NCBI RefSeq assembly: GCF_900067135.1
Contig: NZ_FJUR01000001.1
Coordinates: 681,001 to 745,000, forward strand
Origin: Rhizobium sp. 9140
GTDB lineage: Bacteria > Pseudomonadota > Alphaproteobacteria > Rhizobiales > Rhizobiaceae
DNA: 64,000 nt
Direction: 5' to 3'
Positions within the stretch are counted from its first letter, which is position 1, and the number at the start of each line of letters is the position of its first letter. Shown in pieces: positions 4,151-43,656 of the stretch. Under the pieces are notes generated by a model, which made no database searches, was not told where the DNA came from, and saw only the letters and a list, made by a program, of their open reading frames with translations. A program made the position numbers and the translations under genes.

Positions 4151-4777
4151 ATGACGCATCAGCTTGTCCTCGCCTCCGCGAGCCCGTTCCGGCGCATGCT
4201 GCTCGAGAATGCTGGCATCGCCTTTACGTGGCAGGCGGCCGAGATCGACGAGCGCGCGCTGGAAGCACCGCTCGCGGCGGAAGGCGCATCCCCGGAAAGA
4301 GTCGCGACTGTGCTGGCCGAAGCAAAGGCGGAATCTGTCGCCTCGGCATTGCACAAAGAGCAAGGGGTTGGGGAAGACATCGGTCCCGTCGTCATCGGGT
4401 CCGATCAGACGATGTCACTGGGGGGCCGCGTGTTTCACAAGCCAGTCTCGATGGAGGAAGCGCATGACCATTTACGCTCTTTGTCCGGGCAGACCCATCA
4501 ATTGAACAGCGCCATTGTCCTTTACCAGGATGGCAGGACCTTATGGTCCCATGTCTCGACCGCTCGCCTGACGATGCGCCCGCTCGATGACGGATTTATC
4601 GCACGGCATCTCCAGCGGGTGGGAGAGAAAGCTTTGACAAGCGTCGGCGCCTACCAGCTGGAAGGCGAGGGGATACAACTGTTCGAGGCGATCGACGGCG
4701 ATTACTTCACGATCCTCGGATTGCCGCTCCTGCCGCTGCTGGGTGAACTGAGAAAATTGAGTGTCATCGATGCATGA
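4151..4777 (+). CDS. maf: Maf-like nucleotide pyrophosphatase
   Basis: A 208-residue Maf/YceF-family nucleoside triphosphate pyrophosphatase, thought to remove modified or non-canonical nucleotides and historically linked to septum inhibition. The signature SASPFRR (9-15) matches the family SxSPRR motif, and GSDQ (DQTMSL) supplies the acidic metal-binding site. It starts 28 bp after ppsR and overlaps aroE by 8 bp. The substrate subtype (dTTP/UTP versus m7GTP) cannot be fixed from sequence alone. Confidence 0.92.
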
Positions 4778-5633
4778 TTCACGTGAAACATTTGTTAACC
4801 ATGCCTTCGTCGCCGGTTATCCGGTTCGCCATTCGCGCTCGCCGTTGATCCATTCGCACTGGCTGAAGACACTGGGGCTGGACGGCAGCTACACCACACG
4901 CGAAGTCACACCCGCCATCTTTCCCGATTTCATAGCGCTTCTCAAATCCGGCCAATCCGGCTTCGTCGGGGGCAATGTCACCATTCCACACAAGGAAACG
5001 GTGATTGCCCATGTCGATGAGGCCGATGCGCTGAGCCGGGAAATGGGTGCGGCCAACACCGTCTGGTTGGAGGAGGGCCGGCTGAAGGCAACCAATACCG
5101 ACGGCCTCGGCTTTGCCGCCAATCTCGACGAGCGGGCTCCGGGATGGAACAACGCCGAGACCGCTATTGTGCTCGGGGCCGGTGGTGCCAGCCGCGCTGT
5201 GATCCAGGCCGTCCGCGATTGCGGCGTCCGCACCATCCATGTGGTCAATCGCACGCTGCCCCGTGCCCGCGAACTCTCAGACCGCTTCGGGCGCACACGC
5301 GTCCTGGCCCATGCCATGGACGCGCTGCCGGAGCTTCTCACAGATGCAAGCCTCTTCATCAACACGACCTCGCTCGGCATGGACGGTACACCGGTTCCCG
5401 ACTTCGATTTCACTCGCATGCCCGGCAACGCCGTCGTGACCGATATCGTCTACGTTCCCTTGGTCACGCCCATCCTCGCGCAGGCAGAGGCGCAGGGCCG
5501 AAGAATCGTAGACGGGCTCGGCATGCTGTTGCATCAGGCGGCGCCCGGCTTCGAAAAATGGTTCGGTCAAAAACCTCTCGTGGATGAAACGCTGCGCGCT
5601 CTCGTCATCGCCGATATGGCGGCACACGCATGA
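4770..5633 (+). CDS. aroE: Shikimate dehydrogenase
   Basis: NADPH-dependent reduction of 3-dehydroshikimate to shikimate in aromatic amino acid synthesis. The protein is 287 residues from the ATG at 4770; an in-frame GTG at 4761 would add three residues. Seen motifs are the shikimate site SRSPLIH, the catalytic-Lys motif [15 protein letters not shown], and the dinucleotide loop GAGGASRA. It overlaps maf and shares ATGA with coaE. The first codons contain a 15/16 parS match (4775-4790) written in codons rare for this genome (TCA, ACA, TTT, GTT), suggesting the DNA motif is selected along with the protein. Confidence 0.97.
4775..4790. other. parS: parS-like ParB-binding site (15/16)
   Basis: TGATTCACGTGAAACA matches the near-universal chromosomal parS TGTTTCACGTGAAACA at 15 of 16 positions. 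It sits across the maf stop and the aroE start, 1.5 kb from the predicted oriC. Bacterial parS sites cluster near the origin, and parAB are normally just beyond rho in rhizobia, off the left edge here. Confidence 0.8.
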
Positions 5634-6220
5634 TCGTCCTTGGGCTCACCGGATCGATCGGTATGGGCAAGTCCACGACGGCCGAAATGTTCAAGGCGCT
5701 GGGCGTTCCCGTCAACGATGCCGATGCCGTCGTTCACGATCTCTATCGCGGCCAGGCCGTCGCGCCCATCGAGGCAGCTTTTCCCGGTTCCACAAAAGAC
5801 GGTGTGGTCGATCGCGCGGCCCTTAGCGCGGCGCTGGCGAAACATCCGGACGACTTCAAGACGCTGGAGTTGATCGTCCACCCTCTCGTCCGGGAAAGGG
5901 AGCGGGCCTTTCTCGACAGAGAAAGACAGGTCAACGCCGCCCTCGTCGTCCTCGATATTCCCTTGCTCTACGAGACGGGCGGCGAGAGTCGGGTCGATAA
6001 GGTCGTGGTTGTCACCTGCGATGCCGACATCCAGCGTCAGAGGGTTCTCGCCCGCCCGGGCATGACGCCGGAAAAATTCGCCCTGATCCTGTCGCGGCAA
6101 ATGCCGGACAGCGACAAACGCGCCCGTGCAAACTATGTGATCGATACTGGTCACGGACTGGACGCCGCGCGCCGAAAGGTCGAAGAGATTGTCAGCGCTC
6201 TCACTGTCCAAGCGGGATAA
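5630..6220 (+). CDS. coaE: Dephospho-CoA kinase
   Basis: ATP-dependent phosphorylation of dephospho-CoA, the last step of coenzyme A synthesis. The 196-residue length is normal. The Walker A motif is GSIGMGKST (8-16), and the family motif [10 protein letters not shown] follows at about 30-39. [11 protein letters not shown] forms the Walker B / CoA region. ATGA overlap with aroE shows translational coupling. A second CoA-pathway gene, coaA, occurs at 45.1-46.1 kb. Confidence 0.97.
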
Positions 6221-6269
6221 CATGTCCCCCGCTGGACAGCAGATCGTATTCGACGGAAGGATAAGTGCC

Positions 6270-6968
6270 ATGCGGGAAATCATCTTCGATACGGAAACCA
6301 CCGGCCTCGACAATCGCCAGGACCGCGTCATCGAAATCGGTGGCATCGAGCTCAATGATCATTTTCCGACCGGCCGGAGTTTTCATAAGTACATCAATCC
6401 CGGTGACCGCAAGGTCCATCCCGATGCGCTCGCCGTGCACGGCATCACTGATGATTTCCTGAAGGACAAGCCGGTCTTCGCCGAGGTGGTCGAGGACCTC
6501 ATGGCCTTCTTCGAGGGCGCCCGCTGGGTCGCGCACAACGCCACCTTCGACATGGGTTTCATCAATGCCGAGCTGGCGCGTCTCGATCGGCCGGCGGTCT
6601 CGCAAGACCTCGTCACCGATACGCTGTCTATGGCACGCCGCAAGCATCCGATGGGGCCGAACTCGCTCGATGCCCTTTGCCGGCGCTACGGCATCGACAA
6701 CACCCATCGCACAAAGCACGGCGCCCTGCTGGACTCCGAGCTTCTCGCCGAGGTCTATATCGAGATGATCGGCGGCAGGCAGGCAGCGCTCGGCCTGACC
6801 ACGCAGGAAAGCCGTGCCCAGGCGGAAGCCTCCGATGACGTGGTTGCCGTGCCGCGCGAGCGGCCGACGCCTTTGCGTCCGCGCCTTGCCGAAAACGACA
6901 TGGCCGCCCATGCGGCCCTTGTCGAGAAGATCGGCGCAAAGGCCATCTGGTCGCATTACGAGGTCTGA
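6270..6968 (+). CDS. dnaQ: DNA polymerase III epsilon subunit (3'-5' proofreading exonuclease)
   Basis: DEDDh exonuclease that proofreads for the replicative polymerase. ExoI is DTETTG (7-12, acidic D7 and E9), ExoII is HNATFDMGF, and ExoIII carries the catalytic pair in KHGALLDSELLAEVY. The 232-residue length fits DnaQ. The ATG at 6270 was chosen because MREIIFDTET is the standard N-terminus; the longer in-frame ORF from 6189 would add unrelated residues overlapping coaE. It is the last gene of the ppsR operon and is followed by a hairpin terminator shared with secB. Confidence 0.95.
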   Translation: MREIIFDTETTGLDNRQDRVIEIGGIELNDHFPTGRSFHKYINPGDRKVHPDALAVHGITDDFLKDKPVFAEVVEDLMAFFEGARWVAHNATFDMGFINAELARLDRPAVSQDLVTDTLSMARRKHPMGPNSLDALCRRYGIDNTHRTKHGALLDSELLAEVYIEMIGGRQAALGLTTQESRAQAEASDDVVAVPRERPTPLRPRLAENDMAAHAALVEKIGAKAIWSHYEV

Positions 6969-6974
6969 ACGCAA

Positions 6975-7002
6975 AACGCCCGGCCTTGTCGGACCGGGCG
7001 TT
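6975..7002. terminator. Bidirectional terminator between dnaQ and secB
   Basis: Inverted repeat AACGCCCGG / CCGGGCGTT with a 10-nt loop, just after the dnaQ stop and 25 bp from the secB stop. The convergent placement suggests it serves both genes. Confidence 0.75.
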
Positions 7003-7026
7003 GAAATCAGTCGGCCTGAAGTCCGA

Positions 7027-7518
7027 TCAGTTCGGGGTGGTGGAAACCTGGGCGCGGACGCGGTCTTCAGCCATACGCTGCGTGAACATCTGCGCGAAAT
7101 CGATCGGGTCGATCATCAGCGGCGGGAAGCCGCCATTGCGCGTCGCGTCGGCCACGATCTGGCGGGCAAACGGGAACAGCAGGCGCGGGCACTCGATGAA
7201 GAGCAGCGGCAGCATGTGTTCCTGCGGGAAGCCGGTGACGCGGAAGACGCCACCATAGGTCAGCTCGACGGCAAACAGAATCTTGTCGCCATCCTTGGCT
7301 TCGGCATTCAGCGTCAGCACGACGTCGAATTCCGTATCCGTCATCGGATTGGCGTTCACATTGACGTTGATGTTGATCGCCGGAGCCTTGTCGCGGGCCT
7401 GAAGCGAGCGCGGCGCACCCGGATTTTCGAACGAAAGGTCCTTGATGTACTGGGCGAGAATGTTCAGCGACGGATTTTCACCGGTGTCACCGTTCGTGGG
7501 TGCTGCTGTGTCGGTCAT
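7027..7518 (-). CDS. secB: Protein-export chaperone SecB
   Basis: Cytosolic tetrameric chaperone that keeps preproteins unfolded and hands them to SecA. The 163-residue protein shows the SecB core: [32 protein letters not shown], and the C-terminal [17 protein letters not shown] signature. The ATG at 7518 gives the usual N-terminus MTDTAAPT; the 23 extra in-frame codons upstream look non-coding. It is convergent with dnaQ and sits beside fxsA, the usual alphaproteobacterial arrangement. Confidence 0.97.
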
Positions 7519-7652
7519 GAGGCGCGTTCCTTGGAGGCGTTCTATAGAATGATGCGTTGAATGAAGCGGTTCATTGGTCGAGCGCATCTATCATTTCGGG
7601 CATGCCCTTACAACCCGAGCGGCCGGGCGGGACACCGGCGAGGGCGTTTCCG

Positions 7653-8144
7653 TCACCGCAGCCGGTCGTTCGGGTCGGTGCGGTCGGGGTCCCTGGTAAA
7701 TTCTGCGTCATCGAGATCGATCACGCCGGGGATGGCGCGTGGCCGAGTGCTGGCCGGATCGGGCCGCGCACTGCTCGTCCGCGTCACCACGGTGATCCGC
7801 TTTCGCAGAAACTGCCAGACCGCTTCCCGCACCGCGGGGACGAACAGAAGGATGCCGAAGACGTCCGTCAGAAACCCGGGCAGGATCAGCAGAAGGGCGG
7901 CGACGACGATCATCGCGCCATGAACGATCTGCCGGCCGGGGTTCTCGCCGGTACGCGATGCGGACTGGAGTTTTCGCAGGACACCAAGGCCTTGCGTCCT
8001 GAGGAGAAGCGCGCCGACGATGGCGGACAGGAGAATCAGACCGAGCGTGGCACCCACGCCGATCTCGCGCCCGACGACGATAAAGGTGGCGATCTCCGCC
8101 ATCGGCAGGAGCAGGAAGAAGAGCGGGATCAGGGAAAGGCGCAT
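7653..8144 (-). CDS. fxsA: FxsA-family membrane protein
   Basis: A 163-residue inner-membrane protein of the FxsA/YtzA family; the E. coli member modulates exclusion of phage T7 by plasmid F. Hydrophobic segments occur at about 3-20, 27-46 and 75-105, including LILPGFLTDVFGILLFVPAVR, the most conserved stretch of the family. The tail is charged and Arg/Asp-rich. The start at 8144 (MRLSLIPLFF) places the first helix at the N-terminus, as in relatives. It diverges from the Tim44-like gene across 219 bp. Physiological role in rhizobia is unknown. Confidence 0.88.
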   Translation of the reverse strand: MRLSLIPLFFLLLPMAEIATFIVVGREIGVGATLGLILLSAIVGALLLRTQGLGVLRKLQSASRTGENPGRQIVHGAMIVVAALLLILPGFLTDVFGILLFVPAVREAVWQFLRKRITVVTRTSSARPDPASTRPRAIPGVIDLDDAEFTRDPDRTDPNDRLR

Positions 8145-8296
8145 TCGGTCCACGTGTTGGTTGGAAGGGTTGTCGTCGGCGCGATGCCATGAGGCAACAG
8201 AGCGAAGAGGCGGCATCGGATCATGCGTCGGCGGTTCTCTGCTTCAAGATACCTGCCGATCTGCTTTCAACGCTTTGCCAATCTGCTCCTGGCCAT

Positions 8297-8325
8297 TTGA
8301 ATGATGGGTCCATCGCGTCTATATG
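8297..8325 (+). promoter_or_regulatory. Candidate sigma-70 promoter for the Tim44-like gene
   Basis: TTGAAT (8297-8302), 17-bp spacer, TATATG (8320-8325), placed about 40 bp before the start codon at 8364. Pattern match only. Confidence 0.45.
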
Positions 8326-8363
8326 GGTCTCTAAGATACATCATAAAAGCGGCATTGGTGGAA

Positions 8364-9062
8364 ATGGGATCTTTCGACTTCGTAACATTGTTCTTTCTTG
8401 TCGCCGCGGTGATCATTTTCATCCAGCTTCGCAGCGTGCTGGGCCGTCGGACAGGCAATGAACGCCCACCGACCGATCCCTTCTCCGCCCGTGAACCTGT
8501 CGAGAGCGCCGACCCCACCGGCAAGGTGGTTCAGCTTCCCCGCCGCGATACGGTCGTGGACGAGGCAGCGCGCTATGCGGCGATCGATGCTTTCGCCAAG
8601 CCGGAGACCCCGCTGAACGCTTCGTTGCGTAAGATCACCGACGCCGACAATGCCTTCGACCCGAAGGAGTTCGTGCACGGTGCGCGGATGGCTTATGAAA
8701 TGATCGTCACCGCCTTTGCGGATGGCGACCGGAAGACGTTGAAGTCGCTTCTCTCCAAGGACGTCTATGACGGCTTCGAAGCAGCGATCGCCGATCGCGA
8801 GGCCAAGGGCGAAATCGTCAAGTCCACCTTCGTCGGCATCGAAAAGTCCGACATCGTCTCGGCCGACCTGAAGGACGGCGAAGCGATCGTCACCCTGCGG
8901 ATCTTCAGCCAGCTGATCTCGGCGACCTTCGACAAGGCCGGTACGATCGTCGATGGCGATGCGGAAGCCGTTTCCGAGGTCAACGATCTCTGGACGTTCG
9001 CGCGCGACACCCGTTCGCGCGATCCGAACTGGAAGCTGATCGCGACCGAATCCGAAAACTAG
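8364..9062 (+). CDS. Tim44-like domain protein (TimA-type)
   Basis: A 232-residue protein with one N-terminal membrane helix (FVTLFFLVAAVIIFIQL, about 5-21), a charged Pro-rich linker, and a C-terminal Tim44-like domain from about residue 80. That domain shows ADGDRKTLKSLLSKDVYDGFEAAI and the closing WTFARDTRSRDPNWKLIAT, typical of the family. Alphaproteobacterial members are relatives of mitochondrial Tim44 and are proposed membrane adaptor proteins. The start at 8364 gives MGSFDFVTLFF. It lies 82 bp before mltA and probably shares its transcript. Confidence 0.88.
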   Translation: MGSFDFVTLFFLVAAVIIFIQLRSVLGRRTGNERPPTDPFSAREPVESADPTGKVVQLPRRDTVVDEAARYAAIDAFAKPETPLNASLRKITDADNAFDPKEFVHGARMAYEMIVTAFADGDRKTLKSLLSKDVYDGFEAAIADREAKGEIVKSTFVGIEKSDIVSADLKDGEAIVTLRIFSQLISATFDKAGTIVDGDAEAVSEVNDLWTFARDTRSRDPNWKLIATESEN

Positions 9063-9144
9063 GTCCTTTGCGTCCACGCGGTTTCGCCGGGACGCAGACA
9101 AGAACGAGCGTGCCCGTCAGTCCAGCAGAGAGATAGGATCGCCG

Positions 9145-10251
9145 ATGGATTTCGCGCTCCGCAAGGTCGCCTTTTCGGATCTGCCCGGCTGGGCGGAAGA
9201 CGATCCGGCCGATCTTCTGCCGGCCCTGCGCCGGTGCCGGCACCATGTCGAAACGGTCAAGCCTCACCGAACCGGATCGCTCGGCATATCCTCGCACGAT
9301 CTTCTGCCAGCCTACCGCGCAGCCGATGATCTCAAAGCACCGGATGCCGCTACGGCCCGCGCCTTCTTCGAGGAGAACTTTCAGCCCTTCGCCATCGAGC
9401 GTCGGGATGGAAAGCCGGGTTTCGTCACTGCCTTCTTCGAGCCCACGGTTGCTGTCAGCCGCGAGCGCGCCGGCGAATATACCTATCCCTTCTATCGCCG
9501 CCCGGCCGATCTCATCGATCTCGATGCGACAAACCGCCCGGCCTCTCTGGACGAGAGCTTCGCCTTCGCCCGCAGCGTTGAGGGTCGCGTCGAGGAATAT
9601 CCCGACCGTCAAGCGATCGAAACCGGCTGTCTCGCCGGGCGCGGGCTCGAGATTGCTTATGCCCGCTCAAAGACCGATGTCTTCTTCGCCCATGTTCAGG
9701 GCGCCGCACGGCTCGTCTTTCCTGACGGTTCTTCGGAGCGAATCACCTATGCCGCAAAGAGCGGCCACCCCTTTTCGGCCATCGGCCGGCTGCTGATCGA
9801 CCGCGGCGACATCGATGCGGCGACCGTATCCATGCAGTCGATCAAGGGCTGGCTCGATATGCATCCCGAGGAAGCCGACGCGGTGATGTGGCATAACCGC
9901 TCCTTCATCTTCTTTCGCGAGGCCACGGTCGAGGACCCCGAACTCGGACCCGTTGCCGCCGCCAAGGTGCCCTTGCAGCCGGGACGCTCCTTGGCGGTCG
10001 ACCGCCTGATCCATACATTCGGCGTGCCGTTCTTCATCGCAAGCGACAGCCTGACCCGCATCGACGTCGGCCGGCCGTTTCGGCGGCTGATGCTGGCGCT
10101 CGATACCGGCACCGCCATCGTCGGCCCGGCTCGTGGCGACATCTTTACAGGTTCAGGGGATGAAGCGGGCGAGCGAGCGGGCGCAGTGCGCAACGAGGCG
10201 GACTTTTTCATTTTGATTCCGAAGGCGGCGGCAGCAAGATACGAGACATGA
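9145..10251 (+). CDS. mltA: Membrane-bound lytic murein transglycosylase A (MltA), no visible signal peptide
   Basis: Cleaves peptidoglycan glycan strands with formation of 1,6-anhydromuramic acid. The 368 residues contain the MltA domain (about 90-250; TAFFEP, YPFYRRPADL, YAAKSGHPFSAIGRLLI) and the C-terminal 3D domain, whose Asp motif appears as LALDTGTAIVGPARGDIFTGSG. Unusually, the N-terminus (MDFALRKVAFSDLPGW) has neither a signal peptide nor a lipobox, and the in-frame codons upstream code nothing hydrophobic. It overlaps smr as ATGA. Confidence 0.93.
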   Translation: MDFALRKVAFSDLPGWAEDDPADLLPALRRCRHHVETVKPHRTGSLGISSHDLLPAYRAADDLKAPDAATARAFFEENFQPFAIERRDGKPGFVTAFFEPTVAVSRERAGEYTYPFYRRPADLIDLDATNRPASLDESFAFARSVEGRVEEYPDRQAIETGCLAGRGLEIAYARSKTDVFFAHVQGAARLVFPDGSSERITYAAKSGHPFSAIGRLLIDRGDIDAATVSMQSIKGWLDMHPEEADAVMWHNRSFIFFREATVEDPELGPVAAAKVPLQPGRSLAVDRLIHTFGVPFFIASDSLTRIDVGRPFRRLMLALDTGTAIVGPARGDIFTGSGDEAGERAGAVRNEADFFILIPKAAAARYET

Positions 10252-10817
10252 CGAGGAAGAAGACGCTATCGAGCGAGGACCGCATTCTCTGGGGCAAGGT
10301 CGCCCGCTCGACGCGCGCGCTGCCCGGACGCATGGAGTTGCTTGCGCTCTTCGAGGGCGAAGACACGCCGCCGAAGCCCACAGAGCCGGTGCCCGTTCCC
10401 GCAGCGAAGGTGACGCGCGAGCCGGCACCAGCCGCCAAGGTCGAAACCGCGAGACGTCACCAGCCGTTGGAAAAGCCCGTCAAGCGCAAGCTCGCCAAGG
10501 GCCATCTGCCGATCGATGCCCGCATCGACCTTCACGGCATGGCGCAGTCGGAAGCGCATGGGCTCCTGCTGCGGTTCATATTGCGAGCGCATGATCATGG
10601 CTTGCGGCATGTTCTCGTCATCACCGGTAAGGGCACGTCGATGGGCAGCGAAGGTGCTTTGAAACGGGCAGTGCCGCTCTGGTTCTCGCTGCCCGACTTC
10701 CGGCCTCTGATCTCCTCCTACGAGCCCGCTGCCCGCAATCATGGGGGCGAGGGCGCCCTCTATGTTCGCCTGTCGCGGCACGGCGTCTCGCGGCATGGCT
10801 CCGGCTACAGCGTATGA
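10248..10817 (+). CDS. Smr-domain protein
   Basis: A 189-residue protein with a disordered Pro/Ala/Lys-rich N-terminal half and a C-terminal Smr (small MutS-related) domain. The domain carries the diagnostic IDLHGM (about 88-93) and VITGKGTSMGSEGALKRAVPLW motifs. Smr domains are nicking endonucleases or RNA endonucleases in MutS2, YdaL and SmrB; SmrB cuts mRNA at collided ribosomes. No MutS ATPase is attached, so this is a stand-alone form. It is coupled to mltA (ATGA) and to the following regulator (ATGA). Its substrate is not known. Confidence 0.9.
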   Translation: MTRKKTLSSEDRILWGKVARSTRALPGRMELLALFEGEDTPPKPTEPVPVPAAKVTREPAPAAKVETARRHQPLEKPVKRKLAKGHLPIDARIDLHGMAQSEAHGLLLRFILRAHDHGLRHVLVITGKGTSMGSEGALKRAVPLWFSLPDFRPLISSYEPAARNHGGEGALYVRLSRHGVSRHGSGYSV

Positions 10818-11191
10818 CACCCTTCGGTGAGGAGATGATCCGCCTGCGCGCCGAGCGCGGGGTGACGCAGAAGCAGATGGCGCAGGCGCTCAACGTGTCC
10901 GCCGCCTATCTCTCGGCGCTGGAGCATGGAAAGCGCGGCACGCCGAGTTTCGATTTCCTCCAGCGGGTTGCCGGGTACTTCCACATTATCTGGGATGAGG
11001 CGGACGCTTTGTTCGCGCTTGCGGCACAGTCGAACCCGCGCGTCACCGTCGACACATCAGGCCTTCCCCCGAAGCACACGATCCTTGCAAACCTCCTGGC
11101 CGCGCGGATCCGGCATCTTCCGGATCAGACGGTTGTGGATATCACGCAACTTTTGGACAATGCGCAGAAGGGTGCTAAAGATAATTCCTGA
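10814..11191 (+). CDS. XRE-family transcriptional regulator
   Basis: A 125-residue DNA-binding protein. Residues 4-62 form a Cro/C1-type helix-turn-helix (GVTQKQMAQALNVSAAYLSALEHGKRG), followed by a short helical tail of about 60 residues without a recognisable ligand domain. It overlaps smr as ATGA and ends the mltA-smr-xre transcript, 269 bp before gyrB. Small XRE proteins often autoregulate, so its own operon is a reasonable first target, but nothing in the sequence proves this. Confidence 0.88.
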   Translation: MTPFGEEMIRLRAERGVTQKQMAQALNVSAAYLSALEHGKRGTPSFDFLQRVAGYFHIIWDEADALFALAAQSNPRVTVDTSGLPPKHTILANLLAARIRHLPDQTVVDITQLLDNAQKGAKDNS

Positions 11192-11351: not shown

Positions 11352-11439
11352 CAGACGATTGCCAACAAGCTGATTCGCCCTCCCGGATTCCCGCATGGCC
11401 CGGATTCTCGTATGGCAAGCGTCCGAAACGACGCCGTAA

Positions 11440-33193: not shown

Positions 33194-33223
33194 AAACCCG
33201 GCGCTGATGGCAGCGCCGAGTTT
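33194..33223 (-). terminator. Terminator of pckA
   Basis: Inverted repeat of 12 bp with one mismatch (AAACCCGGCGCT / AGCGCCGAGTTT) and a 6-nt loop. In the minus direction it is followed by a run of T, 38 bp after the pckA stop. It overlaps the parS-like core at 33221. Confidence 0.8.
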
Positions 33224-33234
33224 CACGTGAAATC
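33219..33234. other. parS: parS-like site (13/16, perfect 12-bp core)
   Basis: Contains the perfect palindrome TTTCACGTGAAA (33221-33232). The outer bases match the parS consensus at one of four positions. It is intergenic, between arfB and pckA. Confidence 0.55.
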
Positions 33235-33260
33235 CTCGATGAAGCGTTTCCGCCTGAGGC

Positions 33261-34871
33261 TTACTCCGCAGCGATGGCCAGTCCCGGTGCCGCATCGCGG
33301 ACGCCGCCATCGACGTGGCTTTCGAACTTGGCGAAGTTCGCCACGAACATGTTGGCGAGCTTGGTAGCCTGCGCGTCATAGGCGGCACCGTCCGCCCAGG
33401 TCGAGCGCGGATCGAGAATGCCACCCTCGATGCCGGCGACTTCGACCGGAACCGCGAAGCCGAAATTGGCATCGGTGCGGAATTCGGTCGCGGCCAGCGA
33501 ACCGTCGAGCGCTGCGGCGAGCAGAGCCCGTGTCGCCTTGATGGGCATGCGACGGCCCGTGCCGTAGGCGCCACCGGTCCAGCCGGTGTTGACGAGCCAG
33601 CAGGTAACACCGTGCTCGGCGATGAGCGCACGCAGCAGGTTGCCGTATTCGCTCGGATGTCGCGGCATGAAGGGTGCCCCGAAGCAGGTCGAGAAAGTGG
33701 CTTCCGGTTCGGTCACGCCTTTTTCCGTGCCGGCAACCTTGGCGGTGTAGCCGGAGAGGAAGTGGTACATGGCCTGGTCGGCGGTCAGTTTGGCGATCGG
33801 CGGCATGACGCCGAAGGCATCCGCCGTCAGCATGATGATCGTCTTGGGATGACCGGCCGTGCCCGTTGCGCTGGCATTGGGAATGAAGTCCAGCGGATAG
33901 GCGCAGCGGGTGTTCTCGGTCAGCGAGCCGTCATCGAAGTCCGGAACACGGTTCTCGTCCAGGATGACGTTCTCGAGCACGGTACCGAAACGCTTCGTTG
34001 TCGCGAAGATCTCCGGCTCGGCTTCGGCCGAAAGACGGATCGTCTTGGCATAGCAGCCGCCTTCGAAGTTGAAGATGCCGTCCTTGCCCCAGCCATGTTC
34101 GTCATCGCCGATCAGCGTGCGCTTCGGGTCGGCCGACAGCGTGGTCTTGCCCGTGCCAGACAGGCCGAAGAACACGGCGGAATCACCGTCCGGGCCAACA
34201 TTTGCCGAGCAGTGCATCGGCATGACGCCCTTTTCCGGCAGCAGGTAGTTGAGCGCGGTGAAGACCGACTTCTTCATTTCGCCGGCATAGGACGTGCCGC
34301 CGATCAACACGAGGCCGTTGACGAGATCGCAGGCGATGACGGTTTCCGTCCGGCAGCCGTGACGGGCGGGATCGGCGCGGAAATGCGGCAGGTCGATGAT
34401 CGTCAGCTTCGGCGCGAACGTCGTCAGGCTCGCGCGATCCGGGCGGATCAGGAGGTTGCGGATGAAGAGGGAGTGCCAGGCGAACTCGGTGATGACGCGG
34501 GTCGGCAGGGCGTTGTCGCTGTCAGCACCGCCAATCAGGTCCTGCACATAGAGCGAACGGCCACGGGCATGGTCGAGCATATCGTTGCATAACGTTTCGA
34601 AGTGCGCGGGCGACATTTCCTTGTTGTTGTCCCACCAGATCTGCTCGGTCGTCGTCGCATCGCGAACGACGAATTTGTCCTTGGCGGAGCGACCCGTGTG
34701 CTGGCCGGTGAGCGCACGAAGCGCGCCGTCTGCTGTCACCTGCGCTTCGCCAAGCCGCAACGATTCCTCGTAAAGCTCTGCCGGTGTCAGGTTGTAACGG
34801 ACGGCGACAAGGTCTTCAAAACCGAGTGCAGCGATTCCGAGATCCGGATTGCGAATGCCAAATTCTTCCAT
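33261..34871 (-). CDS. pckA: Phosphoenolpyruvate carboxykinase (ATP)
   Basis: Converts oxaloacetate and ATP to PEP, the entry to gluconeogenesis and needed by rhizobia for growth on C4-dicarboxylates. The 536 residues show the kinase P-loop [15 protein letters not shown], the metal and substrate segments [15 protein letters not shown] and LIGDDEHGW, and [11 protein letters not shown]. The ATG at 34871 ([13 protein letters not shown]) is standard. It diverges from chvI across a 384-bp AT-rich region with two LacI-like operators. ChvGI-linked pckA order is conserved in rhizobia. Confidence 0.98.
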
Positions 34872-34970
34872 GAGCGCTGCTCCCCTGCGTTGTATCGATG
34901 GCCCGACATTAGCCGGAGTTACAGAAAATGCAAGATAACATCGAAAAAAATACAATAAATTCAATATATT

Positions 34971-36030: not shown

Positions 36031-37812
36031 GTGGCTGATATAACGAGGCATGCGGCGATCGAGGAAGCGGACGGAGCCTATCGCTCCGGCCGACGCTGGG
36101 CGCATCCCTTCACGCTGATCCGCCGCATCTTCGGCAATGCGGTCTTTTCCAGCCTCACGCGCCGCATCCTGTTCTTCAATCTGGTGGCGCTCGTCGTTCT
36201 CGTCGGCGGCATCATGTATCTCAACCAGTTCCGCGAAGGACTGATCGATGCGCGCGTCGAGAGCCTGTTGACGCAGGGCGAGATCATCGCCGGCGCCATC
36301 GCCGCCTCCGCCTCGGTCGATACGAACTCCATCACCATCGACCCGGAAAAGCTGCTCGAACTTCAGGCCGGGCAGAGCATCACGCCGCTGCCGCGGGACG
36401 AGGATCTCGAATTCCCGATCACGCAGGAGCGTGTCGCGCCCGTGCTGCGCCGGCTGATTTCGCCCACGCGCACCCGCGCCCGTCTTTTCGATGCCGATGC
36501 CGACCTGCTGCTCGATAGCCGCCATCTCTATACCGGGGGTCAGGTGCTGCGGTTCGACCTGCCGCCCATCGAGCCTGAAAACGAGACGCTGACCGGCAAG
36601 CTCAACACCTGGTACAATCGCATGCTCCAGCCGGGCAACCTGCCCCTCTACAAGGAGCCGCCGGGCGGCAATGGGTCGATCTATCCGGAAGTCATGAATG
36701 CGCTCACGGGCGTGCGCGGCGCCGTGGTGCGGGTCACGGAACAGGGTGAGCTGATCGTCTCCGTCGCCGTTCCCGTCCAGCGGTTCCGGGCCGTGCTCGG
36801 CGTGCTCCTGCTATCAACACAGGCTGGCGATATCGACAAGATCGTCCATGCCGAGCGGCTGGCGATTATCCGGGTGTTCGGGGTCGCCGCCCTCGTCAAC
36901 GTCATCCTGTCGCTTCTCCTGTCAAGCACGATCGCCAATCCGCTGCGCCGCCTGTCGGCGGCCGCCATCCGCGTGCGGCGCGGCGGCGCCAAGGAGCGGC
37001 AGGAGATCCCCGACTTTTCCTCCCGTCAGGACGAGATCGGCAACCTCTCCGTGGCGCTGCGGGACATGACCGGCGCGCTCTACGACCGCATCGCGGCCAT
37101 CGAGAATTTCGCGGCCGATGTGAGCCACGAACTCAAGAACCCGCTGACCTCGCTGCGCAGTGCCGTCGAGACCCTGCCTCTTGCCCGCACCGACGACTCC
37201 AAGAAGCGGCTGATGGACGTCATCCAGCACGACGTGCGCCGGCTCGACCGGCTGATCAGCGATATCTCCGACGCTTCGCGCCTGGATGCAGAGCTTGCCC
37301 GCAGCGATGCGCGCGGGGTCGATCTCGAAAAGCTGCTGGGCGACCTCGTCGATATCTCGCGGCAGGTGCGCAACAAGAAGAAGACGGTGCTGCTCAACTT
37401 CGTCGTGGAGCGTAAGGACAACCCCAAGGCCCGTTTCGATGTTAGCGGCTATGAACTGCGCATCGGGCAGATCATCACCAACCTGATCGAGAACGCCCGG
37501 TCCTTCGTGCCGGAAGAGGGTGGCCACATCATCGTGCGGCTGACGCGCAACCGCACGCGCTGCATCGTCTATGTCGAGGACAACGGTCCAGGAATCCAAG
37601 CGGAGGATATCGACCGCATTTTCGAACGTTTCTACACCGACCGGCCGGATGGCGAGGATTTCGGACAGAATTCCGGCCTTGGCCTGTCGATCTCGCGGCA
37701 GATCGCCGAAGCGCATGGCGGCACGTTGCGGGCCGAAAACATGACGGATGCGCAGGGTGCGATCACCGGCGCGCGCTTCATCCTGTCGCTGCCCGTTGGC
37801 GAGGCGGCGTGA
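36031..37812 (+). CDS. chvG: Sensor histidine kinase ChvG (ExoS)
   Basis: Membrane sensor kinase for ChvI, held off by periplasmic ExoR in rhizobia; exoR is not in this window. The 593 residues include TM1 at about 45-64 (ILFFNLVALVVLVGGIMYL), a periplasmic loop of about 220 residues with the sensing domain, TM2 at about 285-305, and a HAMP linker. H366 is the phospho-acceptor in DVSHELKNPLTSL. ATP-binding boxes are NLIENARSF, EDNGPGI and GLGLSISRQIAEAHGG. Its stop overlaps the hprK GTG as GTGA. Confidence 0.97.
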   Translation: MADITRHAAIEEADGAYRSGRRWAHPFTLIRRIFGNAVFSSLTRRILFFNLVALVVLVGGIMYLNQFREGLIDARVESLLTQGEIIAGAIAASASVDTNSITIDPEKLLELQAGQSITPLPRDEDLEFPITQERVAPVLRRLISPTRTRARLFDADADLLLDSRHLYTGGQVLRFDLPPIEPENETLTGKLNTWYNRMLQPGNLPLYKEPPGGNGSIYPEVMNALTGVRGAVVRVTEQGELIVSVAVPVQRFRAVLGVLLLSTQAGDIDKIVHAERLAIIRVFGVAALVNVILSLLLSSTIANPLRRLSAAAIRVRRGGAKERQEIPDFSSRQDEIGNLSVALRDMTGALYDRIAAIENFAADVSHELKNPLTSLRSAVETLPLARTDDSKKRLMDVIQHDVRRLDRLISDISDASRLDAELARSDARGVDLEKLLGDLVDISRQVRNKKKTVLLNFVVERKDNPKARFDVSGYELRIGQIITNLIENARSFVPEEGGHIIVRLTRNRTRCIVYVEDNGPGIQAEDIDRIFERFYTDRPDGEDFGQNSGLGLSISRQIAEAHGGTLRAENMTDAQGAITGARFILSLPVGEAA

Positions 37813-38297
37813 GCCTGAGACAAAACGTAGCGGAGAACGGCCTTGCAGCCGGTGACCAGGCCGCGCCCCGCAATATCCATGCGACGGCCATCGTCCTTGG
37901 CACGCTCGGCTATCTCTTCGTCGGCCCTTCCGGCACGGGCAAGACCAGCGCCGCCCTTGCCTGCCTCTCCTCCGCTGCCCGTCGCGGCTGGAATGCGGCG
38001 CTCGTCTCCGACGATCAGGTCATGGTCAGCCTGCGGAGCGGTCGTCTCGTCGCCCGCGCTCCGGCAACCATAGCGGGCCTCGTCGAGTTGCGCGGTGTCG
38101 GGCCGATCCCGGTTCGAACCGTCATGGCCGCCGTCATGTCCTATGCCGTGTTGCCTGTCGCCCCACCGTTCGATATGCGCGTCGCACCCGAGCTCGAGAT
38201 GTGGGAAGCCGGCCCCGTCGCGCTCCCTTTGCTCCGGCTTCCGCTTCTCCCGGGCCTTGACCCACTGGATGCACTCAGCCGTTTTTCGACCCTTTGA
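37809..38297 (+). CDS. hprK: HPr kinase/phosphorylase, short alphaproteobacterial form
   Basis: Phosphorylates HPr on the regulatory serine. At 162 residues it is only the C-terminal catalytic half of Gram-positive HprK (about 310), as in other alphaproteobacteria. The P-loop is GPSGTGKTS (39-47), and VELRGVGPIPV is the HprK signature region. Start is GTG at 37809, overlapping the chvG stop, so a stress kinase and a PTS regulator are translationally coupled. manX and ptsH lie downstream; the partner Ser is S47 of HPr. Confidence 0.93.
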   Translation: MSLRQNVAENGLAAGDQAAPRNIHATAIVLGTLGYLFVGPSGTGKTSAALACLSSAARRGWNAALVSDDQVMVSLRSGRLVARAPATIAGLVELRGVGPIPVRTVMAAVMSYAVLPVAPPFDMRVAPELEMWEAGPVALPLLRLPLLPGLDPLDALSRFSTL

Positions 38298-38469
38298 ATG
38301 TCGCAGTCTGCACAGTTTTTGCTCATGTGATCCGTGTTTTAGGATTTTTGACTTGCACTCCGGCATTTCCTCGCCAAGATGACCGCCCCAAGGTGGAATG
38401 AAATTGTTGCATTGCGGCATGGCATGGCTATCGTCCGCCGAAGGGAAAAGGCAGTTGGAGCAAAGACAC

Positions 38470-38871
38470 ATGATCGGACTTGTGCTTGTCACGCACGGCA
38501 AGCTGGCTGAAGAGTTTCGTCATGCGCTCGAACACGTCGTGGGGCCGCAGAAGTTCATCGAGACCGTCTGTATCGGACCCGAAGACGACATGGACCAGAG
38601 GCGTCAGGATATCCTCACGGCCGTCATCGCCGCCAACGAGGGCAGCGGTGTCATCATTCTCACCGACATGTTCGGCGGTACGCCGTCCAACCTCGCCATC
38701 TCCGTCATGCAGAGCGGTACTGTCGAGGTCATCGCCGGCGTCAACCTGCCCATGCTGATCAAGCTGGCCGGCGTGCGTGGCGAGAGCGACATGGACAAGG
38801 CGCTGGTCGAGGCATCCGAGGCCGGGCGCAAATACATCAACGTCGCCAGCCGCGTTCTCAGCGGCAAATAA
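38470..38871 (+). CDS. manX: PTS EIIA component, mannose (EIIA-Man) type
   Basis: A 133-residue phosphocarrier of the EIIA-Man family. The phospho-His is H9 in VLVTHGKLA, and MFGGTPSNLAI is the family's conserved loop. No EIIB or EIIC permease is encoded nearby, so it is a regulatory rather than transport PTS, taking phosphate from HPr. The ATG at 38470 was chosen. ptsH starts 15 bp downstream. Regulatory targets cannot be read from sequence. Confidence 0.95.
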   Translation: MIGLVLVTHGKLAEEFRHALEHVVGPQKFIETVCIGPEDDMDQRRQDILTAVIAANEGSGVIILTDMFGGTPSNLAISVMQSGTVEVIAGVNLPMLIKLAGVRGESDMDKALVEASEAGRKYINVASRVLSGK

Positions 38872-38886
38872 CGGACGCATTCCTTC

Positions 38887-39159
38887 ATGACACTGTCGCG
38901 GGACCTCCAGATCATCAACAAGCGCGGTCTCCATGCGCGTGCCTCCGCCAAGTTCGTGCAGACGGTGGAGGCCTATGATGCCGACATCCATGTGACGAAG
39001 GACGGCATGACCGTCGGCGGGCTCTCGATCATGGGCCTGATGATGCTTGCTGCCAGCACGGGCAGCTCGATCTCCGTCACCGCAAGCGGCAATCAGGCCG
39101 AAGAAGCGCTGGAAGCACTCGACGCACTGGTCAAAGACCGTTTCGGCGAGGAAATGTAG
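38887..39159 (+). CDS. ptsH: Phosphocarrier protein HPr
   Basis: A 90-residue HPr. H16 in NKRGLHARASAK is phosphorylated by EI (ptsP, not in this window), and S47 in GGLSIMGLMML is the site for HprK. Coupling chvG-hprK-manX-ptsH puts both phosphorylation inputs of this signalling PTS in one cluster. It is followed at 13 bp by a 24-bp dyad that belongs to the ahcY leader. Confidence 0.97.
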   Translation: MTLSRDLQIINKRGLHARASAKFVQTVEAYDADIHVTKDGMTVGGLSIMGLMMLAASTGSSISVTASGNQAEEALEALDALVKDRFGEEM

Positions 39160-39167
39160 GCATATAA

Positions 39168-39191
39168 ACATATAAAGACGTCTTTATGTGT
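39168..39191. promoter_or_regulatory. 24-bp dyad operator candidate upstream of ahcY
   Basis: An 11/12 inverted repeat whose core ATAAAGACGTCTTTAT (39172-39187) is a perfect 16-bp palindrome, 132 bp before the ahcY ATG. Form and position suit a repressor site. SahR, an ArsR-type SAH sensor that controls ahcY and methionine genes in proteobacteria, is my leading candidate, but I cannot verify the motif here. Confidence 0.6.
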
Positions 39192-39322
39192 GTGTTGCCT
39201 GCGATCCGCTTTCCTGCTAGAGGAAGATCGCGCCCTGGCTGTGCCCGGGAAAAGAGATCACGCTCGCCAGCGGTCCCGGAGCTTGAAGCTTTCGACCCGG
39301 CGCGCCTTTAGCGGAGAGCTTC

Positions 39323-40723
39323 ATGAGCACGACCAACGACTATCTGGTAGCCGATATCGGCCTGGCCGACTTCGGCCGCAAGGAAATCACCATCGCCGAA
39401 ACCGAAATGCCAGGCCTGATGGCCTCGCGCGAGGAATTCGGCACGTCGAAGCCGCTGAAGGGCGCTCGCATCACCGGCTCGCTGCACATGACGATCCAGA
39501 CCGCCGTCCTCATCGAGACGCTGGTTGCGCTCGGTGCAGACGTCCGCTGGGCGTCGTGCAACATCTTCTCGACGCAGGACCATGCTGCTGCGGCCATCGC
39601 TGCCGCCGGTATTCCGGTCTATGCCGTCAAGGGCGAGACGCTGACGGAATACTGGACCTACACCGATAAGATCTTCCAGTGGACCGACGGTGGCGTCTCC
39701 AACATGATCCTCGACGATGGCGGCGATGCCACCATGTACATCCTGCTCGGTGCGCGTGCCGAAGCCGGTGAAGACGTGCTGTCGAACCCGGGCTCGGAAG
39801 AAGAAGAGATTCTGTTCGCGCAGATCAAGAAGCGTCTGGCTGAAACGCCGGGTTTCTTCACCAAGCAGCGCGACGCGATCCAGGGCGTCACCGAGGAAAC
39901 GACGACCGGCGTCAACCGCCTGTACCAGCTGCACGCCAAGGGCCTGCTGCCCTTCCCGGCGATCAACGTCAACGACAGCGTCACCAAATCGAAGTTCGAC
40001 AACAAGTACGGCTGCAAGGAATCGCTGGTCGACGGCATCCGCCGCGGCACCGACGTAATGATGGCCGGCAAGGTTGCCGTCGTCTGCGGTTACGGCGATG
40101 TGGGCAAGGGTTCGGCAGCCTCGCTGTCGGGTGCCGGCGCACGCGTCAAGGTCACGGAAGTCGATCCGATCTGCGCCCTGCAGGCCGCCATGGACGGCTT
40201 TGAAGTCGTGCAGCTCGAAGACGTCGTCGCCAGCGCCGATATCTTCATCACCACGACCGGCAACAAGGACGTCATCCGCATCGAGCATATGCGCGAGATG
40301 AAGGACATGGCGATCGTCGGCAATATCGGCCACTTCGACAACGAGATCCAGGTTTCTGCGCTTCGGAACCTGAAGTGGAACAACGTCAAGCCGCAGGTCG
40401 ATCTCATCGAGTTCCCCAAGGGCAACCGGATGATCCTTCTGTCGGAAGGCCGTCTGCTGAACCTTGGCAACGCGACCGGTCACCCGTCCTTCGTCATGTC
40501 GGCCTCGTTCACCAATCAGGTTCTGGCCCAGATCGAGCTTTTCACCAAGGGCGAACAGTACGAAGCCGGCGTCCACATCCTGCCGAAGCACCTCGACGAA
40601 AAGGTCGCGCGCCTGCACCTCGCCAAGCTCGGCGTGAAGCTGACCACTCTTTCCGAAGAGCAGGCTTCCTATATCGGCGTAACCCAGCAAGGCCCGTTCA
40701 AGGCGGATCACTACCGCTATTAA
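39323..40723 (+). CDS. ahcY: Adenosylhomocysteinase (SAH hydrolase)
   Basis: NAD-dependent hydrolysis of S-adenosylhomocysteine to homocysteine and adenosine, which relieves inhibition of methyltransferases. The 466 residues are full length. Motifs are the substrate loops [11 protein letters not shown] and [14 protein letters not shown], the NAD fold [13 protein letters not shown], and the C-terminal NAD-contacting Lys-Tyr pair in FKADHYRY. It has a 163-bp leader with a dyad operator and ends in a GC-rich terminator. Confidence 0.99.
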
Positions 40724-40752
40724 AACGGATCATACGCTCATCCACAGATGAT

Positions 40753-40790
40753 AAGAGGCCGTGCGCTTGACAGCGTGCGGCCTCTTTTTC
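40753..40790 (+). terminator. Terminator of ahcY
   Basis: AAGAGGCCG / CGGCCTCTT stem extended by GCGC-type pairs, ending in a T run, 30 bp after the ahcY stop. Confidence 0.8.
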
Positions 40791-41079
40791 GTCTGAGCGC
40801 TTCCCGCTTACGGGGGGAGTGGGTATGCTGCCTGTATCGATTCGGGACGAAGATGCGGCACTGACGCGGACCGGGTCAAAAAAAGCGTTGATTTTCAGGA
40901 CGGGACGCGACGCGCCGCAAGCGGCGGGCAAGCATAAGCGCGTAACCATCCGGAGAAAGACGATATTCGTCCAAGCGGCCGTACCTAGAGACCGCTGGAG
41001 ACGGCGGACGTGCGCCCTGTCGGTCGATGCCATTTGGTGGAAGATCGTTGGGACGACGTGCAACGGGGACAGGCACGCG
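40791..41079. other. ahcY-divL gap after the ahcY terminator
   Basis: The gap between the ahcY stop and the chosen divL start is 356 bp, of which this is the part after the terminator. The divL frame stays open back to 40819, but the codons before 41080 show no domain or hydrophobic pattern. I see no clear promoter; GGGGGGAG at about 40813 precedes an in-frame GTG at 40819. Confidence 0.5.
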
Positions 41080-43656
41080 ATGACGAAAGCTTTTTGGAAC
41101 GCGGGAAGAGCGGATGCGGATCCGATAGAGTCCGGCATGGTTTCCGCCCGGGTGCAGCTACACCATTCTCCCACGACATCCGCTGCTCCCGATACCGCCT
41201 CCGTTCCACGCTGCAATCGCCTGTCCCTGGCTGTTCGTCGGCTGGCAGCAAGCTCCGCATTGGGGCTCCTCTCCGGCGAGGCCATGGCAGCCGAAGGCGT
41301 TGCCAGCGTCTTCCACTCCTCCGAAATCATCACCTTCTCACTCCTGACCGGCGCCATTGCCGCGGCCATGATCTCCGCCGTCTGGGTCATTCGCCAGCGC
41401 AGCACGGTCGAGACCGACAATCGCGACCTGAAGACGGCGCTTGCAGATGCCCGTCAGAGCATCTCGCGCTTTCAGGCCCTGATTTCCGACAAGAACCGCA
41501 GCATCGTCGTCTGGGACGGCCCGGCCGAAAAGCCGGAGTTCCTGGGCCAGCTGCCGCCGGAAACCGGAGCGCCGCAGGACGACCGGGACTTTCTGGCCTT
41601 CGGTCGCTGGATCAAGGCGACATCCGCCAGCGAACTTGAGCATGCCATCGACCGGCTGCGCACCTATGCCGAAAGCTTCGACCTCGTCGTTCAGACCAGC
41701 CGCAATGAAATTCTGGAAGCACAGGGGCGCGTATCCGGCGGCCGGGCTTTCGTGCGTTTCGTCGCGCTCAACAATCTGCGTGAGGAACTGGCGGAGCTGA
41801 CGCTGGAGCGCGACCGCCTGCGCGGCGATCTCGCCAGCCTCCAGACGCTGTTGAACGCCGTGGACATGCCGGTCTGGCAACGCGGTCGCGACGGGCAGAT
41901 TACCTGGGTCAACGAAGCCTATCGCGATGCCGTGGAGGCGCCGAGCGCCGATGTGGTCGTCCAGGAAGGCCGCGAGTTGCTGGCGACCGTTTCACGTGAA
42001 AAAGCCAAGGCCATTTCAACCTATGATTCCCCCTTCCGCGACAAGATCTCGACCGTCGTGCGCGGCCAGCGCACCTTCTTCGACGTCGTCGATGCGAAGA
42101 CGACCTATGGCACGGCCGGCATCGCGCTCGATGTGAGTGCCATCGAGGCGGTCCGCGAGGAGCTTTCGCGCACGCTGAAGAGCCATGCCGAAACGCTGGA
42201 TCATCTGGCGACGGCCGTTGCCACCTTCGACGGCTCGCAGCGTCTGCAATTCTACAATCAGGCCTTCCAGACCCTGTGGAACCTCGACACGGCCTTTCTC
42301 GCTCGCCGTCCCGGCAATGGCGAGATCTTCGACCAGCTGCGCGAAAGCGGCCGGCTCCCCGAGCAGCTCAGCTGGAAGCAGTGGAAGGAACAGGCCCTCT
42401 CGGTCTATCAGGCGATCGAAACCCAGACGGATATGTGGCATCTGCCGAACGGGCAGACCCTTCGCGTCTTCGCCACGGCCCGCCCACAGGGCGGGGCCAC
42501 CTGGGTTTTCGAGAACCTCACCGAGCGGGTAGACCTGGAAACCCGCTACAACACGCTGGTTCAGGTTCAGGGCGAAACCATCGATCATCTCTCCGAAGGC
42601 GTTGCCGTGTTCGGCCCGGACGGGCGCATCAAGCTCTCGAACCCGGCCTTTCGGGCGCTCTGGGGCGTGACCGAAACGGAGGTTGCGCCGGGCACGCACA
42701 TCCGTGCCATCGAGCAGGCTTGCGCCGTGTCCTACGATCAGCCGGATGGCTGGAAGCAGTTCGCCCATGCCATTACCAGCTTCGAGGATGAGCGGCCGTC
42801 CAGCCGTGGCATGCTGGAGCTGCGCACCGGTCTCATCCTCGACTTCGCCATCATTCCCCTGCCCAATGCGCAGACCATGCTGACCTTCGTCGATATGACG
42901 GACAGCGTTCGCGTCGAGCGCGCGCTGACGGAGAAGAACGAGGCGCTGCGGATGGCGGATTCGCTGAAGAACGACTTCGTCCAGCACGTCTCCTACGAGT
43001 TGCGCTCGCCGCTCACCAACATCATCGGCTTCGCCGACCTCCTGAAGACGCCCGCCTTCGGCGAACTTTCAACGCGCCAGGCGGAATATGTCGACCACAT
43101 CTCCACCTCTTCGTCGCTGCTGCTGACCATCGTCAACGACATCCTCGATCTCGCCACCGTCGATGCCGGCATCGTCGAGCTCGACCTCAGCGAGATCAAC
43201 CTCACCGATTTCCTGGATGAGGTGGCCCAGCAGATGGCCGATCGCCTGCAGGAAAGCGCCGTCACCTTGCGCATCGATACGCCGGATATGCTCGGCACTT
43301 TCGTTGCCGATCATCAGCGGCTGAAGCAGATCTTCATCAAGCTCCTGACCAATGCCGCCAATTTCGCGCCGGAAGGCAGCGTCGTCGGCCTGTCCTGCGC
43401 CCGCGAAGGCAACGATTTCGTCTTTACCGTCAGCGATCACGGCCCCGGCATTCCGAAGGATGTGCTCGAAAGCGTCTTCCATCGCTTCGAAAGCCACGGC
43501 CAGCGCGGCGGTGCCGGCCTCGGCCTCTCCATCGTGGACAGCTTCATCACCCTGCACCACGGCAAGGTCCGCATCGTCACGCGCGAAGGCGAGGGGACGG
43601 AGGTCGTCTGCCGCATTCCCTCGGGCGCGCTGCCAAAGGCCGAAGCGGCGGAATGA
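41080..43656 (+). CDS. divL: DivL-type cell-cycle pseudo-histidine kinase (PAS domains, Tyr at the H-box)
   Basis: An 858-residue PAS and kinase protein. After a polar N-terminus comes one membrane helix (about 88-106, FSLLTGAIAAAMISAVWVI), a coiled coil, several PAS domains (about 250-600), then the kinase core. The H-box reads HVSYELRSPLTNI, with Y639 where the phospho-His should be, the hallmark of Caulobacter DivL, which controls CckA through DivK~P. The ATPase boxes remain: KLLTNAANF, DHGPGIP, GGAGLGLSIV. The start at 41080 is tentative (41137 also possible). A 14/16 parS-like site lies in its coding region at 41988. Confidence 0.88.
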   Translation: MTKAFWNAGRADADPIESGMVSARVQLHHSPTTSAAPDTASVPRCNRLSLAVRRLAASSALGLLSGEAMAAEGVASVFHSSEIITFSLLTGAIAAAMISAVWVIRQRSTVETDNRDLKTALADARQSISRFQALISDKNRSIVVWDGPAEKPEFLGQLPPETGAPQDDRDFLAFGRWIKATSASELEHAIDRLRTYAESFDLVVQTSRNEILEAQGRVSGGRAFVRFVALNNLREELAELTLERDRLRGDLASLQTLLNAVDMPVWQRGRDGQITWVNEAYRDAVEAPSADVVVQEGRELLATVSREKAKAISTYDSPFRDKISTVVRGQRTFFDVVDAKTTYGTAGIALDVSAIEAVREELSRTLKSHAETLDHLATAVATFDGSQRLQFYNQAFQTLWNLDTAFLARRPGNGEIFDQLRESGRLPEQLSWKQWKEQALSVYQAIETQTDMWHLPNGQTLRVFATARPQGGATWVFENLTERVDLETRYNTLVQVQGETIDHLSEGVAVFGPDGRIKLSNPAFRALWGVTETEVAPGTHIRAIEQACAVSYDQPDGWKQFAHAITSFEDERPSSRGMLELRTGLILDFAIIPLPNAQTMLTFVDMTDSVRVERALTEKNEALRMADSLKNDFVQHVSYELRSPLTNIIGFADLLKTPAFGELSTRQAEYVDHISTSSSLLLTIVNDILDLATVDAGIVELDLSEINLTDFLDEVAQQMADRLQESAVTLRIDTPDMLGTFVADHQRLKQIFIKLLTNAANFAPEGSVVGLSCAREGNDFVFTVSDHGPGIPKDVLESVFHRFESHGQRGGAGLGLSIVDSFITLHHGKVRIVTREGEGTEVVCRIPSGALPKAEAAE
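41988..42003. other. parS: parS-like site inside divL (14/16)
   Basis: Perfect TTTCACGTGAAA core with a matching G at position 2; mismatches only at positions 1 and 15 of the consensus. It encodes T-V-S-R-E-K using a TCA serine codon uncommon in this GC-rich genome. Confidence 0.6.

Follow-up and report, generated by a model that had tools for sequence, protein, structure and literature searches.

The window considered here, the whole stretch of 64,000 nucleotides that was analysed, corresponds to positions 681001–745000 of the 3.67-Mb contig C1 of Rhizobium sp. 9140. It carries, among other genes, hemE, maf, aroE, pckA and divL (Table 1), and three palindromic words resembling parS, the site bound by the partition protein ParB, lie across the maf-aroE junction, behind pckA and within divL. 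An earlier note, made from the sequence of the window alone, had described these words as a cluster of three ParB sites supporting a nearby replication origin.

When the 12-mer core TTTCACGTGAAA was searched with up to one mismatch, three matches were obtained in the window, perfect ones at 33221 and 41990 and one with a single mismatch at 4777, compared with 0.08 (standard deviation 0.31) in shuffled windows (n=100). Perfect cores are expected 0.0009 times in 64 kb from base composition. The earlier note had put this expectation at 0.004 and the second perfect core at 41991; its point about rarity stands with the smaller value, and the core in fact starts one base before. Measured against the consensus 16-bp palindrome TGTTTCACGTGAAACA, the sites at 4777, 33221 and 41990 have one, three and two mismatches, respectively, and the one-mismatch core and 15/16 fit claimed for 4777 were reproduced. 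As also claimed, two of the sites are in coding sequence: the 4777 site overlaps the maf stop codon and aroE codons 3–7 (numbered from ATG 4770), the 41990 site is within divL, and that at 33221 lies between genes. In the window, no matches were obtained with Rfam or in a tRNA scan.

Table 1. Genes, predicted parS sites and other features in the window and in the neighbouring part of contig C1.
Feature	Position	Strand	Remarks
hemE	window 1863..2894	-	NCBIfam TIGR01464, 404.9 bits; landmark beside candidate origin
hemE-ppsR intergenic region, candidate oriC	window 2895..3300	none	three one-mismatch DnaA-box-like nonamers; 49% A+T vs 37% in window
maf	window 4151..4777	+	NCBIfam PRK02478.1; stop codon TGA belongs to predicted parS
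aroE	window 4770..5633	+	NCBIfam PRK00258.1-4; start ATG 4770 chosen from alignment of starts
predicted parS	window 4775..4790 (C1:685777, window 4777)	none	TGATTCACGTGAAACA, asymmetric -6 T to A form; across maf stop codon TGA and aroE codons 3-7
likely pckA terminator hairpin	window 33200..33217	-	by eye; run of T next on - strand
predicted parS	window 33219..33234 (C1:714221, window 33221)	none	AGTTTCACGTGAAATC, perfect 12-mer core; between pckA stop codon and likely terminator
pckA	window 33261..34871	-	NCBIfam PRK09344.1-4, 999.2 bits; start from family match, residue 32 of open reading frame 33261-34964
divL	window 40819..43656	+	Pfam HisKA, HATPase_c, PAS; histidine-kinase-like, Tyr replaces phospho-acceptor His
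predicted parS	window 41988..42003 (C1:722990, window 41990)	none	CGTTTCACGTGAAAAA, perfect 12-mer core within divL, GTT TCA CGT GAA AAA (V-S-R-E-K)
predicted parS	C1:651525		about 70 bases upstream of likely start of MltB-like gene (MLKKTFALA start, our choice)
predicted parS	C1:666703		between acs and htpX
parB	C1:675119-676006		within parS cluster
parA	C1:676040-676909		within parS cluster
rsmG	L011:15824-16483 (C1:676824-677483)		3.5 kb left of window; 5' coding end holds predicted parS, VSRET
predicted parS	C1:677435		rsmG open reading frame codons 13-17
predicted parS	C1:679379		between mnmE and mnmG

A cluster of seven sites around parA and parB

The whole genome (5,428,940 bases in seven contigs, 5.43 Mb) contains eight places matching the core with up to one mismatch, and seven of them fall within C1:651525-723001, a span of 71.5 kb. 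The eighth, TTTCAGGTGAAA, is at C1:3591294. In window coordinates the seven sites start at -29475, -14297, -3565, -1621, 4777, 33221 and 41990, so that three are inside the window and four to its left. Four have perfect cores (677435, 679379, 714221 and 722990 on C1) and three carry ATTCACGTGAAA or its complement, with one change (651525, 666703 and 685777); all are one to three mismatches away from the 16-bp consensus. Random placement would put seven sites in one such span with a probability of about 4e-11, the span having been picked after the fact. No core match at up to one mismatch was found on the other six contigs (C2-C7); parS of the repABC type is bound by RepB, and the repABC content of these contigs was not searched. 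The 16-mer with up to three mismatches, a search that the earlier note had proposed, gave 11 places: the cluster of seven again, plus four dispersed ones, of which C2 holds two and C3 and C1 hold one each. The reversed control gave three. Among the dispersed places, C2:901014 equals the divL site with two mismatches, but both are in the core. The clustering described in the earlier note was thus borne out, with seven members over 71.5 kb and not three.

The parA and parB genes are located within this cluster. The ParB protein has the domains ParB_N, HTH_ParB and ParB_C, and matches the ParB of PDB 6t1f/7bm8 at 5e-70 with the GERRWRA stretch kept. Counted by hand on this alignment from GKSR = R173, Caulobacter positions 173, 179, 184 and 201 are occupied by R, S, K and G. 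Noc carries Q-K-K-R and binds an NBS-type (Noc-binding) site, ATTTCCCGGGAAAT. The site centre CACGTG and the ParB residues R-S-K-G do not fit nucleoid occlusion sites of the Noc/NBS kind. We take 6t1f/7bm8 to be Caulobacter ParB, its letters agreeing with the residues named in PMC7383237. According to passages of that article, R173 and G201 are the parS-contacting residues of ParB that differ from Noc, and positions 179 and 184 vary among ParBs. By residues 173 and 201, the ParB encoded here is predicted to carry a parS-type reading helix.

The cluster is conserved in the genus. The nearest named relative found is Ferranicluibacter rubi (Rhizobiaceae), whose HemE is 97% identical and whose DNA is 92.9% identical across 8.7 kb and 96.8% identical across 1.3 kb. 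Five genomes of the same genus (G001-G005) have seven sites each, at spacings within about 0.8 kb of those found here. A sixth (G006, DivL 77% identical) has five sites, of which four fit htpX, rsmG, mnmG and aroE by spacing and none is at divL. Same-genus sites were paired by order and spacing; divL alone was aligned. Sequence, genome-wide clustering, conservation in the genus and the presence of parA-parB inside the cluster together indicate that the words in the window are almost certainly the parS sites of a standard ParABS centromere and predicted nucleation points for ParB, in agreement with the assignment to ParB in the earlier note. The system is of a known kind, an ordinary ParABS, and the three sites are new members of it.

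We then consider the asymmetric form ATTCACGTGAAA, in which A replaces T at position -6. The six seven-site genomes, our own included, hold 42 cluster sites, 24 perfect and 18 of the -6 form; their 16 off-cluster one-mismatch matches include no perfect core and no -6 form (Fisher p 4.5e-10, orthologues being counted as independent). As the form occurs in the cluster and never off it in these genomes, it behaves as a real parS. Among 80 named loci around hemE (L029-L108), 120 perfect and 128 one-mismatch cores were counted, and 123 of the latter were the -6 form. Of these 123, many of which are orthologous copies and not independent events, the mnmE stop codon accounts for 41, aroE for 31 and hemE for 18; those elsewhere are nearest to mnmE (16), hemE (10), mnmG (4) and dnaQ (3). 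Where the site covers the stop codon of maf or mnmE, the A at -6 forms the TGA; no such reason was seen at the other -6 sites. The form was absent as a plain string from the main texts of parS-titled papers (the count for TTCACGTGAA equalled that for TTTCACGTGAAA), supplements and figures not being covered.

The 18 loci with a -6 parS inside hemE (L079-L083, L085, L088, L092, L093, L095-L098, L100-L103 and L105) belong mostly to Mesorhizobium and Aminobacter, and none has the aroE site, which points to turnover of sites around the origin. One locus, L070 (JAHREI010000001.1), is titled Bacillus subtilis and has a Hyphomicrobiales-type hemE-mnmE-rsmG region with parS; it is mislabelled or contaminated.

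Codons at the gene-embedded sites

The core at the rsmG site is perfect in all 68 of the 80 hemE loci that hold rsmG. A wider survey covered 115 alphaproteobacterial genomes, one per family; 98 gave an RsmG match, and the reading covered every one of these and none of the remaining 17. A parS word with up to one mismatch was present at the codons homologous to rsmG 13–17 in 69 of the 98 (63 perfect, six with one mismatch), that is, in 28 of the best 30 matches and 41 of the other 68. These 69 sites encode VSRET in 64 cases and VPRET, VSHET or VSCET in five. In the 29 sites of the best 30 loci, counting an upstream site in L244, the codons are GTT in 29, TCA in 28, CGT in 29, GAA in 29 and ACA in 23; downstream in the same genes TCA makes up 8% of 238 Ser codons and CGT 11% of 300 Arg codons. 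None of the 29 rsmG genes without the homologous site has VSRET at that place in the stretch read. The motif and the parS word have been gained and lost together, indicating that the motif follows the DNA word. Three of these, L244, L291 and L294, carry a parS or one-mismatch parS a short way upstream of rsmG, as if moved out of the gene. Outside the Alphaproteobacteria, RsmG was matched in 57 of 59 genomes; the site was found in none of the 49 RsmG genes read (nine long loci and 40 short stretches), and four of the nine long loci hold a parS-like word elsewhere.

Taking these comparisons together, it is probable that a parS locked in rsmG through much of the history of the class dictates VSRET, which would then serve DNA partitioning and not the enzyme, and that in Hyphomicrobiales ATTCACGTGAAA is a functional second class of site. 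Two features are less ordinary than parS itself, the deep freezing of the rsmG site and the almost complete restriction of variants to the -6 form; neither was found in print, in a literature check outside of which the main parS survey lay.

At aroE, 31 of 74 named Hyphomicrobiales loci with the gene have a match (up to one mismatch) at the same place, with the same 12-mer. All 31 read GAT TCA CGT GAA AC(A/C/G), at AroE identities of 57-98%. Two of these loci, L043 and L054 from Agrobacterium, have both the rsmG and the aroE sites, and among the 43 loci without the site, one (L059) has a possible remnant, D-R-R-E-N. Codon usage was counted on seven family-checked genes of the window: TCA accounts for 8 of 158 Ser codons, CGT for 32 of 236 Arg, ACA for 16 of 199 Thr, GTT for 34 of 210 Val and GAA for 94 of 184 Glu. 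The earlier note had called the codons at the sites rare, which is correct for TCA and ACA; CGT and GTT are better termed uncommon, and GAA is ordinary. Selection at the DNA level on the parS word in aroE is well supported by these alignments.

In divL, GTT TCA CGT GAA AAA is invariant in six genomes and falls within the gene's longest run of identical codons (eight, 390-397). Identical codons are found at 348 of the 766 conserved residues, a rate at which about 0.76 such runs are expected, and the codon identity by itself is suggestive; selection on the divL word, taken alone, is plausible but weak. The alignment of the two genes, which the earlier note had advised, upholds its proposal that the word is selected for aroE and leaves it as a suggestion for divL. 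The divL site is present in five of the six other same-genus genomes. The codons of G006 at the same place, GTC GCC CGC GAA AAG, imply that gain or loss of the site involved an Ala-Ser change. From the loci examined, the divL site appears to be younger and confined to part of the genus. The DivL protein has the H-box HVSYELRSPL with Tyr at the phospho-acceptor position, which we take to be the mark of a true DivL. Behind pckA, 7 of 30 family loci, our own included, from 61 genomes searched, have a site that directly follows the stop codon and differs from the core by one mismatch at most. The arrangement with parS between the pckA stop codon and the likely terminator hairpin (33200-33260) recurs in six other genera of Rhizobiaceae (29 other loci). 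The pckA loci L143 and L144 appear, by eye, to have further-changed versions of the site.

Alternative explanations and the position of the origin

Several observations weigh against the assignment of all the words to one parS centromere. The divL site was found in none of the 29 divL loci of other genera (the best 30 loci less our own, 61 genomes searched), and the pckA site is missing from most pckA loci compared. The fit to the 16-mer is 13/16 positions at 33219 and 14/16 in divL. ParB has K at 184, a Noc-like residue, although this position varies among ParBs. The GC skew is weak around the sites. Finally, in 3 of 26 relatives (G011, G016 and G018, more distant) the one-mismatch counts equal those of the reversed control, so that such counts alone prove nothing in those genomes.

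The alternative that survives best is that only the rsmG, mnmG and aroE sites are working parS, with the divL and pckA copies being weak auxiliary or passing ones. We regard this as possible but unlikely. It would account for the weaker 16-mer fit, the narrow distribution and the missing divL and pckA sites in G006 of the same genus, and passages of PMC5815017 describe two weak putative Caulobacter sites for which tests of each alone in E. coli showed hardly any enrichment or none. On the other hand, the 12-mer core is perfect at both divL and pckA, and five of the six other species of the genus retain the two sites.

Chance matches, aided by local composition or by a conserved S-R-E protein sequence in aroE and divL, are a very improbable source of the words. 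R-E is indeed common at that place in the DivL of other genera that lack the site, and runs of eight identical codons are to be expected in the gene. Nevertheless, three matches against the shuffled expectation, the packing of all but one of the eight genome matches into 71.5 kb, GAT TCA CGT GAA in every aroE carrier, and the rarity of TCA among the Ser codons of the seven window genes counted speak against it; the genome-wide and genus results refute chance for the whole set, and the divL site alone could be a passenger. The core contains CACGTG, which is used by some regulators elsewhere, and at aroE a site coincides with the start of a gene, yet binding of a transcription factor for maf-aroE, pckA and divL, unrelated to segregation, is just as improbable, as a gene start, a place before a terminator and a place deep in divL make no common regulatory sense, parAB has all but one of the eight genome matches in its vicinity and the word is the known parS.

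With regard to the origin, the hemE-ppsR gap lies at about 684 kb of C1, inside the parS cluster, and is the densest 400 bp of the window for nonamers resembling TTATCCACA, which we take to be the DnaA box; it holds three of the eight one-mismatch nonamers in the window, and no perfect one occurs in the window. GC skew was dropped as a test of the origin, as no sharp minimum was found in 621-745 kb. Over 20 stretches of 20 kb, the skew is negative in 11 of the 12 taken as the left arm and in three of the eight taken as the right arm. The octamer GGGCAGGG, presumably KOPS-like, has 17 forward copies and one reverse copy on the right arm (eight stretches) and 4 and 10, respectively, on the left arm (twelve stretches), the window not being counted; the Fisher p of 0.00014 is generous because the arms were split after seeing the values, with the origin placed near 0.68 Mb and the terminus somewhere from 2.27 to 2.5 Mb. 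Clusters of parS fall within tens of kb of an origin, without pinpointing it. An origin within the cluster region, on the hemE side, is moderately supported. The sites thus favour the origin proposed in the earlier note, in that the cluster includes hemE, and do not fix its position.

Proposed function and comparison with known systems

Judging from homologues, a ParB dimer would clamp each palindrome, load cytidine triphosphate (CTP) and slide onto adjacent DNA. The seven sites around the candidate origin would give rise to one origin-centred partition complex. ParA, together with polar proteins, would move this ParB-DNA complex over the origin region and hold it in place. ParB may prefer the half-site GTGAAA, with GTGAAT allowed as one of the two halves. 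The gene-embedded sites in rsmG, aroE and divL all lie in the frame T TCA CGT GAA A, read as S-R-E, and selection appears to act on the DNA word. The analysis places the centromere of the replicon, and hence the likely seat of the organisation of origin segregation, and shows parS sites gained and lost beside one mostly constant anchor, rsmG. The comparison shows coding sequence and centromere sharing bases, and points to the one-base change that ParB seems to tolerate. It would be misleading to interpret VSRET as a motif for RsmG function, or to treat the synonymous sites there as neutral.

The comparisons below with published systems draw on parts of the articles cited. Spo0J-parS of Bacillus subtilis has the same consensus (PMC9239152) and strong sites tens of kb apart (PMC5815017), but its host is a Firmicute. 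ParB-parS of Caulobacter crescentus resembles the present system in clustering near ori, in having parS inside genes and in keeping one half-site, GTGAAA (PMC5815017). It differs in the spread of its five strongest sites, which fit into 5 kb (PMC5815017), in contrast to seven over 71.5 kb here, and in its consensus, which varies (t/c) at -5 (PMC7022226); the variant here is A at -6. In Agrobacterium tumefaciens, ParB1 is enriched at parS1 in chromatin immunoprecipitation sequencing, and the parS1 consensus equals that of B. subtilis (PMC9239152). The ParB1-parS1 system of its chromosome 1 is alike in family, consensus and origin-proximal location (PMC9239152).

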